Positions 332-47,677 of a stretch of 50,356 nt of DNA are shown in pieces (the first letter of the stretch is position 1; every line of letters starts with the position of its first letter). This DNA is from a virus. The stretch lies in IMG/VR virus record IMGVR_UViG_3300027861_000043, positions 1-50,356 of that record; one strand, written 5' to 3'. Under the pieces are notes generated by a model. That model saw only the letters and a list, made by a program, of their open reading frames with translations, was not told the origin of the DNA and ran no database searches. The position numbers and the translations under genes were made by a program.

Positions 332-881
332 ACCGCCAATCCCACCAGTGCCATCCATACCGAAAAGAGGTGACGGACGAGGGAATAAACCAAGAGGTAA
401 AGGTAAGAAAGTTTCTCAAACTGAGCTGATGGCCTATCTTGGCGTTGCTGATAATTCAATTAAGAAATGGGTGAAACTCGGACTACCGCGACGAAAGGAA
501 AAGAACAGAGTTTATTACGACATCGGCGAAGTAATGAGATGGCGTATAGAGTGGGAAACCGAAGTCCTGAAAGATGAACTGGTTGAAGCTAGTAGAGGCA
601 ACAACGGTGACGCAATGACACCGCTACAAGCCAAACTAAGGAAAGAAGTAGCACAAGCATTAACGGCTGAATTAGACCTCGCAATCAAACGAGAGCAGGT
701 AGCCAACATTGATGACTTAATGGAAGAATTCAGCGAAGCATTAATTGAGGTCCGAGCAAAGTTGGTCAGCATGAGTTCAAGATTGGGCGGCATACTATCT
801 CATCAAGACGAAGAAGGTGTTGCTAAAATTTTAGATGGTGAAGTTTCCGATATGTTAGAGGCGTTGTCAGATTATGAATGA
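324..881 (+). CDS. terS: Terminase small subunit (Nu1-like)
   Basis: A 185-aa protein with an N-terminal proline/glycine/basic tail (residues 1-30). A winged-helix segment of the MerR/Nu1 type follows (about 31-75: SQTELMAYLGV, then KKWVKLGLPRR and YYDIGEVMRWR). The C-terminal half (about 100-185) is charged and helical, as expected for oligomerisation. In lambda-type phages this subunit recognises the packaging site and loads the large subunit. It overlaps the genes on both sides by 8 nt (ATG inside the upstream ORF; its own end overlaps terL). Position next to a GpA-type large subunit makes the call firm. Confidence 0.82.
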   Translation: MNKPPIPPVPSIPKRGDGRGNKPRGKGKKVSQTELMAYLGVADNSIKKWVKLGLPRRKEKNRVYYDIGEVMRWRIEWETEVLKDELVEASRGNNGDAMTPLQAKLRKEVAQALTAELDLAIKREQVANIDDLMEEFSEALIEVRAKLVSMSSRLGGILSHQDEEGVAKILDGEVSDMLEALSDYE

Positions 882-2850
882 AGTAAGTGTGCTTGACACA
901 TCAAAAGAAGCAAAGAAAAAAATAGGCGCTATGATACGAGACATCATGAAAAAATGTCTATCACCACCACCTAAGTTAAATTTAGTTGAGTGGTCTGACA
1001 CGTTCAGATATCTCCCTGATAACTCTGCTGAAGCCGGTCGATGGAAAACCGACAGAGTAGAAGCTGCTCGTCAACCAATGCTCTCAGTGAGCGACCCTGA
1101 AGCACAGGAAGTAACAGTCATGAGTTGCATCCAATTTATGAAAACTGAGTTGATGCTGAACACAGCTTTATTTTATATGCACCAAGAACCATCACCAATA
1201 ATGTATGTCGCTCCAAAGTTAGAAACTGCTGCTGCTTGGTCAAAAGAACGACTGGTTAAATCTGTTCATGCGACTCCGGTCATCTCAGATATTTTTTCTC
1301 ACAACCGGAGAGGTGAAGGTAATACTATCACTCAAAAACAATTTGCCGGTGGACAGATTTCAATTGTGTCTGCTCGAAACCCGACTGACCTCGCAATGAG
1401 AGCGTGTCGAATAATGTTGTTCGATGAGTGCGACAAGTACCCGATTAATGTTGGTGCAGGAGAAGCAGGAAGCGGTGGTGAAGGAGACCCGATTACAGTT
1501 GCTTGGGGTCGTGCTACCACCTATGGTAAACGCGCTAAAAAAATCACAGCTTGCAGTCCTACGGTGGATGGTAAAAGTCGAATACAGCAGGAATATAATA
1601 ACTCAAATATGAGCGTTTATATTCAGCCTTGCCCTCATTGTAATCATAAGAAAGTTTTAACGTGGGTGGACGTATTAATCCCTCGTGACGAAAAGAAAAA
1701 CTTCATTCATAAAGACGCTGCAATTTGCTGTTCTGAATGCGGTGTATTGTGGACCGAAAGTGACCGACATAAATCAATCAGAAATGGTTATTGGGAAGCA
1801 ACGAAACCGGAGGTAACTTGGCATCATGGATATAAGGTTTCTTCGTTAGCATCTCCGTTCACACCCATTGCTGTTTTAGCGAAAGAATTTTCTGACGCTC
1901 AGAATAATCCTGAGAAATTAAAAGCGTTTTATAATACCCGAATGGCTGAAGTTTGGAGGGAGGTTGGTGAACAACCAGATTGGGAAAGACTATATGAACG
2001 ACGAGAGAATTTTGACCCGAAAGTTATACCGGATGGTGGGCTATTAATTACGTGCGGAATTGATGTTCAGAAAGACTTCATGTATTACGAAATTATGGCA
2101 TGGGGAAGGAAGAAGGAAAATTGGTCATTAGCGATTGGGACCATCGACGGAAATATTGAGGAAGAAGAAACCAAAGAACGATTGGCAGAATTCCTTGATA
2201 AATTATTAGTTAATACCAACGGTGTTAATGTGCCAATTATGAAGACTTGCATTGACTCCGGTTATAACACGAATGAGGTGTACAGTTTTTGTAGACAGTA
2301 TGGTTCTGCGACTGTTGTACCGGTAAAAGGTGAGGATAATTTAATGACACCTATCGGTACACCAACACTGGTTGATGTTACCGTATCAGGTAAGCGATTA
2401 TCGCGTGGAATGCAGCTATGGAAAGTTGGTTCTAGCGTGATTAAAGAGCAGATTTATCGATGGTTAAATGCTAAGAAACCAACCGACGAAGACCTGAAAA
2501 ATGGACGCACTTACCCCACTGGATATTGCCATTATCCACAATGGGATGAGGAATATTTCAAGCAATTAACAGCAGAAGTTTATACAAAAAAGACAGATAA
2601 TCGTGGATTTTTTAAATTTATTTGGGAAAAACTTAGAAAAGATAACCATTTTCTTGATTGTAGGGTGTACAACAGAGCTGCAAGTGCTATGCTTCAGATT
2701 GACCGGATGACTGAGGCAAATTGGGTTGAGTTGGAGGAAACTTATTCAGCTAACACTACCACTCCTGAGAAAGAAACAGTGAGAGAAGTCAGACCTGCCG
2801 GTAGGCAGAATATCCGTAAGAAAAGAACCTCAAATTGGATTAAACGATAA
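874..2850 (+). CDS. terL: Terminase large subunit (GpA family)
   Basis: A 658-aa packaging ATPase/nuclease of the lambda GpA type. The N-terminal AEAGRWKTDR segment (52-61) is the family's conserved stretch before the ATPase core. The P-loop position reads CIQFMKTE (85-92), with Met where the family usually has Gly. Walker B is IMLFDECDKYP. A Cys pair CPHC plus CCSEC gives a Zn knuckle in the middle. The C-terminal nuclease carries GIDVQ, CIDSGYNTNEVY and NHFLDCRVYN, matching its acidic metal ligands. It overlaps terS by 8 nt and its stop shares a base with the next ATG (TAATG). Thirty-nine nt of this gene (1025-1063) are duplicated in the gene at 38339. Confidence 0.95.
   Translation: MNEVSVLDTSKEAKKKIGAMIRDIMKKCLSPPPKLNLVEWSDTFRYLPDNSAEAGRWKTDRVEAARQPMLSVSDPEAQEVTVMSCIQFMKTELMLNTALFYMHQEPSPIMYVAPKLETAAAWSKERLVKSVHATPVISDIFSHNRRGEGNTITQKQFAGGQISIVSARNPTDLAMRACRIMLFDECDKYPINVGAGEAGSGGEGDPITVAWGRATTYGKRAKKITACSPTVDGKSRIQQEYNNSNMSVYIQPCPHCNHKKVLTWVDVLIPRDEKKNFIHKDAAICCSECGVLWTESDRHKSIRNGYWEATKPEVTWHHGYKVSSLASPFTPIAVLAKEFSDAQNNPEKLKAFYNTRMAEVWREVGEQPDWERLYERRENFDPKVIPDGGLLITCGIDVQKDFMYYEIMAWGRKKENWSLAIGTIDGNIEEEETKERLAEFLDKLLVNTNGVNVPIMKTCIDSGYNTNEVYSFCRQYGSATVVPVKGEDNLMTPIGTPTLVDVTVSGKRLSRGMQLWKVGSSVIKEQIYRWLNAKKPTDEDLKNGRTYPTGYCHYPQWDEEYFKQLTAEVYTKKTDNRGFFKFIWEKLRKDNHFLDCRVYNRAASAMLQIDRMTEANWVELEETYSANTTTPEKETVREVRPAGRQNIRKKRTSNWIKR
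1025..1063 (+). repeat. 39-nt exact repeat, copy 1 (inside terL)
   Basis: These 39 nt are identical to 38406-38444 and, allowing one mismatch, the match extends to 44 nt (1025-1068). Both copies are read in the same frame and encode AEAGRWKTDRVE. In terL this is the family-conserved segment before the ATPase core, so this copy is the likely source. Confidence 0.97.
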
Positions 2851-19587: not shown

Positions 19588-19807
19588 TAAACCCGAAACT
19601 CCTGAAGTTGAAACTCCTGAAGTCGAAACTCCTGAAGTCGAAGAAAAAATTTCAAACCCTAAAGAAAAAATTTCAAACCCTAAAGAAAAAGTAGTGAAGT
19701 TTTGTGAGCGATGTATGTTCGCAGGGAAAGAAATGAACAAAGGCGATGTACTCACCGTAACTAACGACCAAGCCAAAGGTTTAAAAGCCCGAAAGCTGAT
19801 TAAGTAA
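19577..19807 (+). CDS. Small protein with N-terminal tandem repeats and Cys pair
   Basis: A 76-aa protein. Residues about 4-22 are three copies of a PEVET-type pentapeptide (15-nt DNA repeats at 19595-19639). Next come two copies of KISNPKE (21-nt DNA repeats at 19643-19684). Residues 38-76 form a compact domain with CERC and NKGDVLTVTNDQAKGLKARKLIK, resembling small beta proteins found beside phage tail-tube genes. The acidic, repetitive leader should be flexible. It overlaps the GroES-like gene by 11 nt. Confidence 0.6.
   Translation: MANNKPETPEVETPEVETPEVEEKISNPKEKISNPKEKVVKFCERCMFAGKEMNKGDVLTVTNDQAKGLKARKLIK
19595..19684 (+). repeat. Two adjacent coding tandem repeats (3 x 15 nt, 2 x 21 nt)
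   Basis: GAAACTCCTGAAGTT/C occurs three times at 19595-19639. A 21-nt unit starting GAAAAAATTTC occurs twice at 19643-19684. All units keep the reading frame. Such near-perfect repeats expand and contract by slippage, so linker length is likely to vary between relatives. Confidence 0.9.
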
Positions 19808-37835: not shown

Positions 37836-37930
37836 TGTTCAGAGACAGGAGTTGAACCTGTAATCAAAGCCTTAATAGTCACCACAACCTAGATGGAGTC
37901 GAACCATATTTCTCTACCGCAGACTGAACA
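37836..37930 (-). tRNA. Degenerate or atypical tRNA-like fold
   Basis: Read on the minus strand: 7-bp acceptor-like stem (TGTTCAG/CTGAACA). A short D-like arm (TCT-GCGGTAG-AGA, 37911-37923) follows. Next is a 4-bp arm with 7-nt loop TTCGACT (37893-37907) whose anticodon position would read CGA. A variable region of about 30 nt leads to a perfect T-arm (ACAGG-TTCAACT-CCTGT, 37845-37861) with consensus TTCRANY loop. Two extra bases lie between T-stem and acceptor, the D-arm is short, and no CCA is encoded. The long variable region would suit a serine-type tRNA. It may be a decayed tRNA or a tRNA mimic. Confidence 0.3.
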
Positions 37931-37939
37931 TTAATTAGT

Positions 37940-38038
37940 GAGGTGGAGTTAGTAAAAGGCTCAATCATTAGCCGGATTTAAACCGATTCACTAACCTACC
38001 CACAGCAATTTTATATGCTGCGGTTATAACTCCACCTC
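37940..38038 (-). ncRNA. Second cloverleaf-like RNA domain
   Basis: Closed by 12 uninterrupted base pairs, it contains in order: an 8-bp hairpin (CCGCAGCA with TGCTGTGG, one G-T pair), a T-arm-like hairpin with loop TTTAAAT between CGG and CCG, and a 4-bp hairpin GGCT/AGCC. The plan (closing stem plus three arms) parallels the neighbouring tRNA-like domain, but the T-like arm is not next to the closing stem, so it is not a normal tRNA. Confidence 0.4.
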
Positions 38039-38226
38039 TAAGGGAATCACACCCTCTATATTGGTTAATCTTTAAATGCGCCAACTGGCATTATCATCTC
38101 ATCGTCTTGGGAGTGACACCACATCATTATACTGTCCAATATAATGACAGTGTAAACACTGACTCGCTTATCGTTGGAGGGCAGCTAACCCCACCTCGGA
38201 ACTAAGTTCAACCGCCAACGAAATTA

Positions 38227-38254
38227 ATCATACACTAAATAAAAATAATTTCAA
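38227..38254 (-). promoter_or_regulatory. Leftward sigma70-type promoter of the replication arm
   Basis: On the minus strand TTGAAA (38249-38254) and TATGAT (38227-38232) are 16 bp apart. Transcription would start near 38220, exactly where the structured leader begins. It is back to back with the rightward promoter at 38262. Confidence 0.55.
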
Positions 38255-38261
38255 ATATTAT

Positions 38262-38289
38262 TTTACATTCTTTGAAAATCATGTATGAT
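38262..38289 (+). promoter_or_regulatory. Rightward sigma70-type promoter of the replication/recombination operon
   Basis: TTTACA (38262-38267) and TATGAT (38284-38289) with a 16-bp spacer, 49 bp before the ATG at 38339. The same -10 hexamer is used by the leftward promoter, and the two -35 elements are only 7 bp apart, so one regulator could control both arms. Confidence 0.55.
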
Positions 38290-38338: not shown

Positions 38339-39142
38339 ATGGAATTAGGAATACTAGAACGGATAGAAGCCAAGTTAGATAAATTGCTTGGTGCTGAATC
38401 TGCCCCTGCTGAAGCCGGTCGATGGAAAACCGACAGAGTAGAAGTTGCTGCCCCAGAATTAACACCCACTGTTGAAGTACAACCAGAATTACCAGTAGAG
38501 GAATCGAAAGGCTCTGGAATGCTCGATGACGGTGGTTATGAGTGGGATGAGCGCATTCATTCATCTAACAAGAAGAAGACTGCTAAGGGTATCTGGACAA
38601 GACGGAGAGGTATAGATGACTCATTGTATAACCAAGTGATTGCGGAGCAGACAATTAACCCACCAGAAGGTTCGGAAGAAGCAGACATTAATGCTCTGGA
38701 TGTTCCAGAAGCACCATCGGTTCCAACACCTCCTGCTCCACCTTCACCATCGGTTCCAACACCTCCTGCGGTAAAACCTGAAGACGAACTTAAGAAAAAA
38801 GTTATGGCTTCAATTGCAAACTTAACAACGCGCTTTGGTGTAGATTTTGACAAGGTGATTGCTCAACTTCCTGACAACGTAAAAAGCTTTGATGCACTTG
38901 ACTCAAGTAAGTATCAAGAAGTGAGTGTTGCAATGGAAGCTTGGGAAGGATGGTTAGATTTGTGTCAAGATGAAAATGTGACTATTCAAACAATCGGTGG
39001 TCAAGCAGGTATTGACGGAATGATTAGTATTTATAATCACTACAATAACTCAACGAACTTCAACCAGATTGACCCTTCTGAATTAAACAATGTTCATGAT
39101 TGTTTAATGGATTATCGTAAGAAGTGGGAAGCGGTTAAGTAA
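38339..39142 (+). CDS. WDERIH-motif early protein carrying a terminase-derived peptide
   Basis: A 267-aa protein in four parts. Residues 1-20 form a helix (LGILERIEAKLDKLLG). Residues 24-35 are AEAGRWKTDRVE, identical in protein and DNA to part of the large terminase. Residues about 55-95 contain GGYEWDERIHSSNKKKTAKG and a Trp-Thr-Arg-Arg-Arg stretch, a motif known from many phage proteins near recombination genes. A Pro-rich VPTPPAP linker (about 125-150) leads to a C-terminal helical domain (about 155-267). GAGG lies 8 nt before the ATG. It is first in an operon with nuclease, SSB and primase. Function not known. Confidence 0.65.
   Translation: MELGILERIEAKLDKLLGAESAPAEAGRWKTDRVEVAAPELTPTVEVQPELPVEESKGSGMLDDGGYEWDERIHSSNKKKTAKGIWTRRRGIDDSLYNQVIAEQTINPPEGSEEADINALDVPEAPSVPTPPAPPSPSVPTPPAVKPEDELKKKVMASIANLTTRFGVDFDKVIAQLPDNVKSFDALDSSKYQEVSVAMEAWEGWLDLCQDENVTIQTIGGQAGIDGMISIYNHYNNSTNFNQIDPSELNNVHDCLMDYRKKWEAVK
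38406..38444 (+). repeat. 39-nt exact repeat, copy 2 (in early gene)
   Basis: Identical to 1025-1063 in terL, in the same frame; the next base differs and four more then match. The flanks of the two copies are unrelated. In this gene the peptide lies between an N-terminal helix and the WDERIH motif, where it has no family reason to be, so it looks like the acquired copy. Confidence 0.97.
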
Positions 39143-39143
39143 G

Positions 39144-40277
39144 ATGGCTGAAATAGTTCACAGTCGATTCGGCGCATCTGGTTTCAGCAGAATTATTGCC
39201 TGTAATGGTGTGATTCGACAAACCAGACATTGCGTCAATGAATCAAACCCTGCTGCTGAACTTGGTACTGCTGCTCATGAAGCCGGTGAATTTGCATTGC
39301 GAATGGGTGTGAATGCTTTTGACTTATTAGATATTGAATTTAACGGTCATACCGTGGATGCTGCGATGGCTGAAGCGGTTCAACTCTATGTTGCTTTTAT
39401 TAGAAATATAGCGTTGGTAAATAATGTTAAACCAATGCTTGAAGTTAAAGTAATCATGCTATCAGTGCGTGAAGATGTTTTCGGTACTGCTGATTGCATT
39501 TTCATCATCGGTGACACCCTTCACGTGTATGATTACAAACATGGTTATGGAATTGTCGAAGTTAAAAATAATTCTCAAGCAACTTTTTATGGTGTTGCTG
39601 CTCTTGATACTTTTCAATTGTGGGACACTATTAAAACTGTTCGTACAGGAATTATTCAACCTCGCGCTGACCATGTTGACGGGTCCATTCGTCTTCATGA
39701 TTATACAATCGAAGAAATGAAGCAGCACCAGATTGTATTTAAAAATACAGTTGAAGCAGCATCAAATCCTAATGCACCACTTAACGCAGGAGAGCATTGT
39801 TTGTATTGTATGGCTTCCGGTTTTTGTAGACCTCGCATTGAAAGAACTATGAGTTTAGCGTATGGTGAAAAACCAGTTGAAACGCTGAATGAAAATGAAA
39901 TCATTGCAATGTTTAAAGAAGTACCGGCATTAAAAAGAAACATCGCTAGAATTGAAGAACGAGCATTAAGTCTTGCTCGTGACGGAAAGGAAATCGAGGA
40001 TTTCAAATTAGTGAGAGCTATCAAGCGAGCAAGTTGTTCTGATGAAAAACTATTTATTGAAGCGGCGAAAAAAAGCGGCATTGATAAATCCAAACTTTAT
40101 AATCTGAAATTAAAATCGATGACGGATTGTAAAAAAATTGTTGATAAGAAAGTCGTTGATGAATATTTCGTCAAACCGCCCGCGTCAACTACTTTAGTAA
40201 AAATGACTGACAAACGTGCTGCGGTATCTACCCGTCCATCGGCTGTCGGTAAATTCAAAAATGTAACGGAGAAATAA
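39144..40277 (+). CDS. DUF2800-type PD-(D/E)XK nuclease with Fe-S cysteines
   Basis: A 377-aa protein. GTAAHEAGE (His45), DVFGTAD (Asp117), HVYDYKHG (Asp130, Lys132) and Gln145 make the Cas4/AddB/lambda-exonuclease nuclease signature. Cys20 together with Cys219, Cys222 and Cys228 (HCLYCMASGFC) fits the iron-sulphur cluster of that group. DUF2800 genes usually precede a DUF2815 SSB gene in phage replication modules, as here (3 nt between them). A role in end processing for recombination is family-based inference. Confidence 0.82.
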   Translation: MAEIVHSRFGASGFSRIIACNGVIRQTRHCVNESNPAAELGTAAHEAGEFALRMGVNAFDLLDIEFNGHTVDAAMAEAVQLYVAFIRNIALVNNVKPMLEVKVIMLSVREDVFGTADCIFIIGDTLHVYDYKHGYGIVEVKNNSQATFYGVAALDTFQLWDTIKTVRTGIIQPRADHVDGSIRLHDYTIEEMKQHQIVFKNTVEAASNPNAPLNAGEHCLYCMASGFCRPRIERTMSLAYGEKPVETLNENEIIAMFKEVPALKRNIARIEERALSLARDGKEIEDFKLVRAIKRASCSDEKLFIEAAKKSGIDKSKLYNLKLKSMTDCKKIVDKKVVDEYFVKPPASTTLVKMTDKRAAVSTRPSAVGKFKNVTEK

Positions 40278-40280
40278 AAA

Positions 40281-41153
40281 ATGGCTAATGAAATTGTATT
40301 TACAGATGTGTTCAGATTGTCATACCCTCATTTAGAAAAACCTCAAGAGCCGCAAAATGCAGGTGAGGCCGCTAAATATGGTATTGCAATGATGTTCCCG
40401 CAGTCAGGTGTTTTACCTGTCAACAATCAACCAAGTACTACTGATTCAATATTCGCTGCTCTCGACAAATGCTGCATGGAGCAATGGAATATTAATTTTG
40501 CTCAGGCATCGGCTGAAGGTATGGGCGTTCAATTCCCACCGAAACGAAAAGACGGTAATACTGTTTTTGAAAAAGACGCGCAAGGTAATCCTATCGCCGG
40601 TCAGGTTAGTCCTAACTCTGCGAATATGTGGATTCTAACAGCGAAGAATATTGACCCAGTTGGTTGCTGTGACCCAACTGGTACAATTGATATCGCACCG
40701 AAAGATGTACTCGCCGGTTATTGGTGTTCAGCAGAATTAGAATGTGCTGCTTATGACAGTAAGAACGGTCGAGTTATTTCTATTAAAGTGTTGAATGTTC
40801 AACTGTGTTATAAAGATGAGGTGTTCGGCAACAAACGTGTAGCGACTCCTGCTTCGGCTTCATTCGCTAATCGTGCAATTGCTGATTCAAATATTGCACA
40901 AGGTTCTATTCAGCGAGTGGTTCCGAATCAAGTAACACCATCGGCTCCGTCAGTGCCGACACCTCCTGCTCCTACAGTGCCGACACCTCCTGCTCCTACA
41001 GTGCCGACACCTCCTGCTCCTACACCAACCACTCCGGTAATCATGAATGAAGGTCAGCCGACCTATGAAGCAATGATTGCTAATGGATGGACAGATGAGC
41101 AAATCATTACAGCAGGTTACGGTAAAGCTAACTACATGGACCCTGCGGGATGA
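40281..41153 (+). CDS. DUF2815-type single-stranded-DNA-binding protein with repeat linker
   Basis: A 290-aa protein. Residues about 1-205 match the DUF2815 SSB-like fold (FTDVFRLSYPHLEKPQE at the start, then WILTAKNIDPVGCCDPTG and VLAGYWCSAELECAAYDSKNGRVISIKV). A linker of three VPTPPAPT octads (24-nt DNA repeats, 40951-41022) follows. A short C-terminal module (PTYEAMIANGWTDEQIITAGY) resembles segments seen at the ends of other phage replication proteins. It should coat single strands made by the nuclease and helicase. It overlaps the next gene by 4 nt. Confidence 0.78.
   Translation: MANEIVFTDVFRLSYPHLEKPQEPQNAGEAAKYGIAMMFPQSGVLPVNNQPSTTDSIFAALDKCCMEQWNINFAQASAEGMGVQFPPKRKDGNTVFEKDAQGNPIAGQVSPNSANMWILTAKNIDPVGCCDPTGTIDIAPKDVLAGYWCSAELECAAYDSKNGRVISIKVLNVQLCYKDEVFGNKRVATPASASFANRAIADSNIAQGSIQRVVPNQVTPSAPSVPTPPAPTVPTPPAPTVPTPPAPTPTTPVIMNEGQPTYEAMIANGWTDEQIITAGYGKANYMDPAG
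40951..41022 (+). repeat. 3 x 24-nt tandem repeat in the SSB linker
   Basis: Three identical 24-nt units starting CAGTGCCGACACC encode the Pro-rich linker. Identity at the DNA level points to recent slippage or recombination. A similar Pro-rich stretch occurs in the gene at 38339 (about 38714-38770). Confidence 0.9.
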
Positions 41154-45708: not shown

Positions 45709-45926
45709 CGTCCTGCTCCCATTCCAATATCGGAGAGTGTTACCCCGTAGGGCATCATCTGCAATTCTAATGACTTAAAATGCTTGCTGAATGTTAGGCT
45801 GCGAAGGTATTCAACCGGCTTACGTTTAGTCACAACCACTTCGGCTATACGCTTGTCATCCAAATACACTCGAACGTAACTCTCGTTGCCTGTTACTGCG
45901 TGTGTGCCTGTTACTTTTATACTCAT
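45705..45926 (-). CDS. 73-aa early protein, unknown
   Basis: A beta-rich start (MSIKVTGTHAVTGNESYVRVYLDD) is followed by a basic helix. Its ATG and ribosome-binding site lie in the 34-nt direct repeat 45920-45953. Coupled by TAATG upstream and ATGA downstream. Function unknown. Confidence 0.55.
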   Translation of the reverse strand: MSIKVTGTHAVTGNESYVRVYLDDKRIAEVVVTKRKPVEYLRSLTFSKHFKSLELQMMPYGVTLSDIGMGAGR

Positions 45927-45953
45927 TACTGCTTACTCCTACTCTCGTTAATT
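45920..45953 (-). repeat. 34-nt direct repeat, copy 1
   Basis: Identical to 46366-46399. It contains the last codons of the upstream gene (NESRSKQ-stop), its ribosome-binding site (AGGAG) and the ATG of the gene starting at 45926. Confidence 0.97.
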
Positions 45954-46372
45954 TCTTCATTGAGTTTGTGATACATTTCATTAAAATTAATGAAATCTCT
46001 ACCTTCAGGGTTGGAAAATCGAATTCCGTATTTAGAATGGTCCACAAGTTCTTTCGCCTTATTTAAAGAGCAACCTAAAATTTCAGGCATATCTTTAGTC
46101 TTCACCCCCCTATCGACTAGCTCTTTAAATAATCTGTAAGTTAGGTGTTTAGCTTTCAAACGATAGAAATTCTTCCATTTAACTGCCTTGCTCCATTTCA
46201 ACTTATAAGTTTTACCATCATTGTTTAAAGATTCAGTACCGCTTTTGATTTGCCTTTTAGTTGTAGTGATATCAGTCTTAATTTTATAAAGTTCAAATTC
46301 AATTTCTTCTTTCTTCGACATCAAACCTTTCAGTTCTTTTTCCTTCGTTTCTTTAAAATCGTCAGTACTCAT
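45926..46372 (-). CDS. Early coiled-coil/HTH protein bracketed by direct repeats
   Basis: A 148-aa protein. Residues 1-50 form a charged coiled coil. Residues about 80-115 (LFKELVDRGVKTKDMPEILGCSLNKAKELVDHS) look like a helix-turn-helix. The end, INESRSKQ, is the same as that of the next upstream gene because both lie in 34-nt direct repeats. Recombination between the repeats would remove exactly this gene and leave the operon in frame. Probably a DNA-binding accessory protein; function unknown. Confidence 0.6.
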   Translation of the reverse strand: MSTDDFKETKEKELKGLMSKKEEIEFELYKIKTDITTTKRQIKSGTESLNNDGKTYKLKWSKAVKWKNFYRLKAKHLTYRLFKELVDRGVKTKDMPEILGCSLNKAKELVDHSKYGIRFSNPEGRDFINFNEMYHKLNEEINESRSKQ

Positions 46373-46399
46373 TACTGCTTACTCCTACTCTCGTTAATT
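46366..46399 (-). repeat. 34-nt direct repeat, copy 2
   Basis: Identical to 45920-45953, 446 bp apart. It contains the C-terminal codons of the gene at 46372-46851, the ribosome-binding site and the ATG of the gene at 45926-46372. Confidence 0.97.
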
Positions 46400-46915: not shown

Positions 46916-46963
46916 CTACTTTAAGTGGACCGTTAGTAATTTTTTGTACAATTTAGGGGGAGA

Positions 46964-47474
46964 GGACAAAAGTTTGGGAAAACGGACAAAAACTTTTGTC
47001 CTCCTTAAGTCTATGATTTATAACAGTTTTTCGGGTTTTTTGAGGTTGAGAGGACAAAAGTTAAAATAAAATATTTAAAATTTGGGGTAATGAAATCAAT
47101 AGCTTAGAGGTGAAAAGGACAAAAGGACACAAAATAAGGCTGTTTTGGGGTGCAGCTCTGTAGCTCCACAGCCACAGCCAGTACTAAGCTACAGTTACTA
47201 TATAAATACTAGTATATCTTTATAATAAGTAGTATATTTTGTGTCCTTTTGTCCTTTTGCCTTGTAAGTCATTGATTTATAAAGCCCAAATTTTAAATAT
47301 TATTTTTGGTTTTTGTCCAAACTTTTGTCCTCTTGCTCTGTAAGTTATTGATTTTACAGGGTAATTCGGGCTTTTTGCCTTAAAGTGCAACTTTTGTCCT
47401 CTTAGAGCAACTTTTGTCCTTTCGACCTCTAAGTCATTGATTTATAAGGCCCAAATAAAATATTTTAAATTTGG
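46964..47474. repeat. Composite repeat array between the divergent early operons, candidate origin
   Basis: Three boxes recur. Box A, CTTTTGTCC or its complement: about nine copies at 46964, 46984, 46993, 47052, 47117, 47246, 47322, 47391 and 47411. Box B, TAAGTCATTGATTTATAA: exact at 47265-47282 and 47430-47447, variants at 47006-47023 and 47341-47356, inverted at 47091-47106. Box C, an AT-rich CCCAAATTTTAAATATT or complement: 47070-47086, 47285-47301, with a palindromic variant at 47449-47474. Order A-B-C is kept in several units. The region has no convincing ORF. Iteron-like layout next to early promoters suggests origin function; this is inference. Confidence 0.6.
47070..47301. repeat. 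Imperfect 67-bp inverted repeat around an AT-rich core
   Basis: The arms 47070-47136 and 47235-47301 pair at 57 of 67 positions by my count, without gaps. The inner 24 bp (47113-47136 with 47235-47258) and the outer 17 bp (47070-47086 with 47285-47301) are perfect. The 98-bp centre holds a CAGCTCTGTAGCTCCACAGC stretch and then nearly pure A/T (about 47197-47240), suitable for unwinding. Confidence 0.85.
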
Positions 47475-47677
47475 GTATTTTAAGTGGATTTCAGGGTAAA
47501 TGAGAATTGCTCCATTAAAGGACACATATTTCCACTGGTTGAAGATAAAATGAGATTTGAAAGTAAAAATAAGTGGACTTTGACCTAAAAATAAATTTGA
47601 CAAGTGGATTTTGTTTGTGTTACCGCGTGTGCGCGTTCTATTTATAGAAAGTTTTTAAAAATAAGTGGATTATTTAA

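Follow-up and report, generated by a model that had tools for sequence, protein, structure and literature searches.

Why should an early gene of a phage carry, base for base, a piece of the gene for its large terminase subunit? The window analysed here, a 50,356-base virus record (an IMG/VR contig), was compared with itself, and positions 1025–1063 and 38406–38444 were found to form a direct repeat of 39 nt that is exact throughout. After one mismatch at 38445 four more bases match, giving 44 nt in total. Both copies are translated as AEAGRWKTDRVE, while the flanking sequences are unrelated between the two genes. This direct comparison confirmed the 39-nt identity, the common frame and peptide, and the 44-nt extension past the mismatch, all of which had been noted in a preliminary description of this DNA. 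About 3e-14 exact 39-mer pairs would be expected in random sequence of the window's composition. Since the longest repeat in Markov shuffles of the window was only 15–18 nt (n=20), and the longest dispersed exact repeat in nine related phage genomes was only 27 nt (two inverted copies separated by 3.5 kb), a chance origin is excluded. Within the window the pair is the sole exact repeat longer than 18 nt with loci more than 2 kb apart, and there is no third copy of the 39-nt segment.

The first copy lies in terL (874..2850, plus strand), a large terminase subunit gene of the GpA family. Its product matches Pfam GpA_ATPase (1.4e-59) and GpA_nuclease (1.8e-79) as well as PHROG 15 (terminase large subunit); with both the ATPase and the nuclease domains present, it is a full member of the GpA-family large terminases (PF05876, PF20454). 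The segment (1025..1063, plus strand, matching to 1068 with the one mismatch) encodes residues 52–63. The GpA_ATPase domain spans residues 51–307, so the segment falls inside it, at its start, and not just before the ATPase core, where it had been placed at first. The accompanying claim that the segment is conserved in the family held up: two terL relatives, L004 and L005 (84–86% amino acid identity), encode SAEAGRWKTDRV with their own, different synonymous codons, and more distant relatives keep the same motif or near variants. The copied peptide is a conserved GpA motif, but the early protein, holding only 12 GpA residues, is not a member of the family.

The second copy (38406..38444, plus strand, in the same frame, matching to 38449 with the mismatch at 38445) lies in the gene for a 267-residue early-operon protein (38339..39142, plus strand). 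This protein has no Pfam match and only weak matches to PHROGs of unknown function. It is laid out as an N-terminal helix, a linker, a WDERIH motif, Pro-rich repeats and a helical C-terminus. The copied segment sits in the linker between the helix and WDERIH with unrelated flanks, as had been described, and comparison with homologues bore this out. The linker differs in both length and sequence in every homologue examined; in the closest one, from phage L003, which aligns over its full length (132/267 identical, 49% amino acid identity), it is shorter at the position of the segment. An AlphaFold prediction for the early protein gives a helix at residues 2–17 followed by coil, and with a mean pLDDT of 43 from a two-sequence input it is too poor for more. 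The linker carrying the copy is probably a floppy spacer. Local duplication is ordinary growth in this protein family: the Pro-rich repeats are expanded elsewhere in the window's early gene, and local tandem duplications are found in the early genes of MG592431, MG592666, MG592435, KJ018213 and OX241561. What stands out is the copy from a distant locus. The early protein (38702–38776) and the annealing protein encoded in its operon (40935–41024) both contain Pro-rich tandem repeats of similar sequence (PSVPTPPAP-like).

The early gene is the first of an operon that continues with a DUF2800 / PD-(D/E)XK exonuclease (39144..40277, plus strand, assigned by Pfam and PHROG), a Gp2.5-like ssDNA-binding/annealing protein (40281..41153, plus strand; Pfam Enc34_ssDNA-bd 3.5e-11, PHROG 112), a nuclease and a primase. 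L003 and phages of Vibrio, Shewanella, Aeromonas and Pseudoalteromonas have a similar gene order, with a divergent helicase upstream. Searches based on the early protein, the exonuclease and the upstream element returned L003 as the only close early-gene relative, and none was found in the genome contig collection. Upstream of the early gene, a block of ~40 nt (about 38231–38270) is identical in L003, whereas identity in the adjacent coding DNA is only about 67%. The block contains a palindrome, AAATAAT-N7-ATTATTT, directly before a promoter-like TTTACA-16-TATGAT, and is a candidate operator with an early promoter. The neighbouring region 37910–38230 separates the early gene from the divergent genes on the helicase side. 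Its predicted folding is much more stable than that of shuffled sequences (z −4.2) and includes a long imperfect hairpin; the region has no Rfam match, and the L003 sequence differs there. Rfam and tRNA scans of the whole window returned no matches.

Which gene was the source? The segment is present in 0/11 early-protein homologues examined (L003 and ten others with unrelated linkers). Because relatives of terL hold the motif with their own codons, and homologues of the early gene lack it, terL is the source, and copying ran from terL into the early gene. Among the terL genes compared, the early copy is completely identical at synonymous sites only to that of its own genome; the next-best foreign terL reaches about 81–88% identity over 32–43 nt. 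The two copies differ by 0/39 substitutions, which bounds their divergence since copying at less than ~7% (95% bound, assuming a freely evolving segment). Over the early-gene stretch the window and L003 have diverged by about 33% in DNA. With no substitution in 39 positions, the copying into the early gene is recent. No other phage with the early-gene copy was found, either in viral contigs by exact 29-mer or in the phage genome set. The idea of recent copying, or a recombination scar, which had been raised earlier as one of several, is thus supported by the absence from 11 homologues, the conserved terL motif and the synonymous identity to its own terL only. The check proposed with it, whether the copy is present in only some related phages, likewise came out for copying, with one phage carrying the segment and 11 homologues lacking it. 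Taken together, these comparisons show which gene gave the segment and which received it, that the relatives examined lack it, and that the copying is recent.

The reading frame shared by the two copies adds little. Read in either of the remaining forward frames, the 44-mer contains a stop codon, whereas it is open in all three reverse frames. Inserted in the forward direction, the segment could leave the protein intact only in the terL frame, and since the forward alternatives contain stops, the common frame is weak evidence. We rejected it as a sign of selection on the peptide.

We consider it highly probable that a single recent intragenomic event copied up to 44 nt of the phage's own terL into the first gene of the recombination/replication operon, within its variable linker, where the insert was tolerated. 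We infer that the event was illegitimate, through annealing or a template switch. During replication, a short single strand of terL could have annealed to DNA of the early locus; alternatively, a nascent strand could have switched template briefly to terL and then returned. The phage's own Gp2.5-like annealing protein, encoded two genes downstream of the early gene, may have helped. The copy would have persisted because the reading frame stayed open, this being the sole stop-free forward frame, and because the linker tolerates nearly any sequence. Most likely this was a one-off copying accident rather than a working device, and the copied peptide most likely acts only as a spacer. By eye, the linker PAEA...VAAPE resembles PTEA...LALVPE of L003, but the longest word that the segment shares with the linker of L003, 6 nt, is not above chance (random terL 44-mers give a mean of 5.7), and the L003 linker is too diverged to represent the ancestor. 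With one phage carrying the copy, the ancestral linker and the exact borders of the patch are not visible from this single sequence.

Could the second copy be an artefact of assembly or library preparation, a false piece of terL in the early gene of a metagenomic contig? The record is an IMG/VR contig from a single assembly, and the exact 29-mer, found in no other viral contig, has no independent confirmation. However, both flanks of both copies run on in homologous genes (the early gene against L003, terL against L004), and both reading frames remain open. One false join at a repeat would swap a flank and make no second copy; two joins 39 nt apart would be required. Together with the mismatch at 38445, this makes a chimera unlikely.

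A functional role for the peptide is also improbable. In such a role the terL-derived peptide would engage a partner of the terminase, or divert a host sensor of it, and so delay or mask packaging. In favour of this, the peptide is a conserved GpA motif, located where the ATPase domain starts, and the copy preserves it unaltered. The copy is, however, too young for its conservation to imply selection, with 0/39 changes and a bound of ~7%; it is absent from 11/11 other homologues, it lies in a hypervariable linker, and its frame was forced by stops in the alternatives. The earlier suggestion that the peptide lets the early protein compete for a terminase partner has no support beyond the identity of the two peptides, as the segment is lineage-specific and placed in that linker. 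In its more specific form, that the phage has newly gained a terminase-mimicking peptide that holds back packaging while replication proceeds or misleads a terminase-recognising host sensor, the proposal is very doubtful. A decoy of this kind should be kept in homologues or be under selection, and the peptide occurs in 0/11 homologues and in one sequence of its own lineage.

The full DNA identity of the two loci might instead mark a site recognised at both, such as a protein-binding or recombination site. Conservation above the codon background, and presence at both loci in relatives, would then be anticipated, and neither was found. Among positions encoding the same amino acid, identical codons make up 5/10 in the terL segment against 282/520 in the rest of the gene for L004, and 4/10 against 66/141 for L005; this amounts to no excess synonymous conservation, although in so short a segment a weak effect could escape. 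The early genes of L003 and the other homologues lack the copy, and the window holds none beyond the pair. With synonymous conservation of the segment equal to that of the rest of terL, we rejected a DNA-level site, and with it the earlier alternative of selection on the DNA itself, as very improbable. Horizontal transfer from another phage's terL would draw on a widespread family, as GpA terminases are common in phages, but is very unlikely, because the phage's own terL is identical and the best other one reaches only the 81–88% given above.

The window contains other repeated sequences. A 34-nt exact direct repeat (45920–45953 and 46366–46399) lies at two consecutive minus-strand gene junctions, flanking the gene at 45926–46372 (minus strand). 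Each unit runs from the end of one gene across a ribosome-binding-like sequence into the start of the following gene, and as a result two otherwise different proteins end alike, with the last residues INESRSKQ. This repeat may reflect the same copying tendency, or it may be a boundary of gene-cassette exchange. The AT-rich region 46952–47480 contains, inside 460 bases, all 8 copies of AGGACAAAAG found in the whole window (0.12 expected). They are largely arranged as mirror images, plus-strand copies on the left and minus-strand copies on the right, with a 73-nt inverted repeat alongside; the array resembles a replication origin of the iteron type or an operator array for a regulator. At 19641–19682 a 21-nt unit, AAGAAAAAATTTCAAACCCTA, is present in two exact tandem copies.

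The copying of a terL piece into the early gene offers a clean natural case of short-patch copying between unrelated genes within one phage genome, and it shows how variable linkers of phage proteins can accommodate, in frame, part of another gene. There is no sign of a new system. The nearest described process is short-patch double illegitimate recombination (SPDIR; Harms et al., 2016, doi 10.1073/pnas.1615819114, as cited in PMC8116780 and PMC7192050), reported from Acinetobacter baylyi in a transformation setting. As in SPDIR, a short segment (39 nt) is identical to another place in the same genome and has unrelated flanks, and the recipient locus of relatives, here L003 and ten homologues, lacks it. 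The present case differs in concerning a phage genome, known from a single sequence, with border microhomology at chance level against L003. Phage recombinases are known to carry out relaxed (homeologous) recombination, as documented for lambda Red (PMC2327257). The likeness lies in phage-coded annealing recombination with a low demand for identity, as the phage of the window encodes a Gp2.5-like annealing protein; the difference is that lambda Red acts there on long pairs of diverged genes, whereas here tens of bases entered an unrelated gene.
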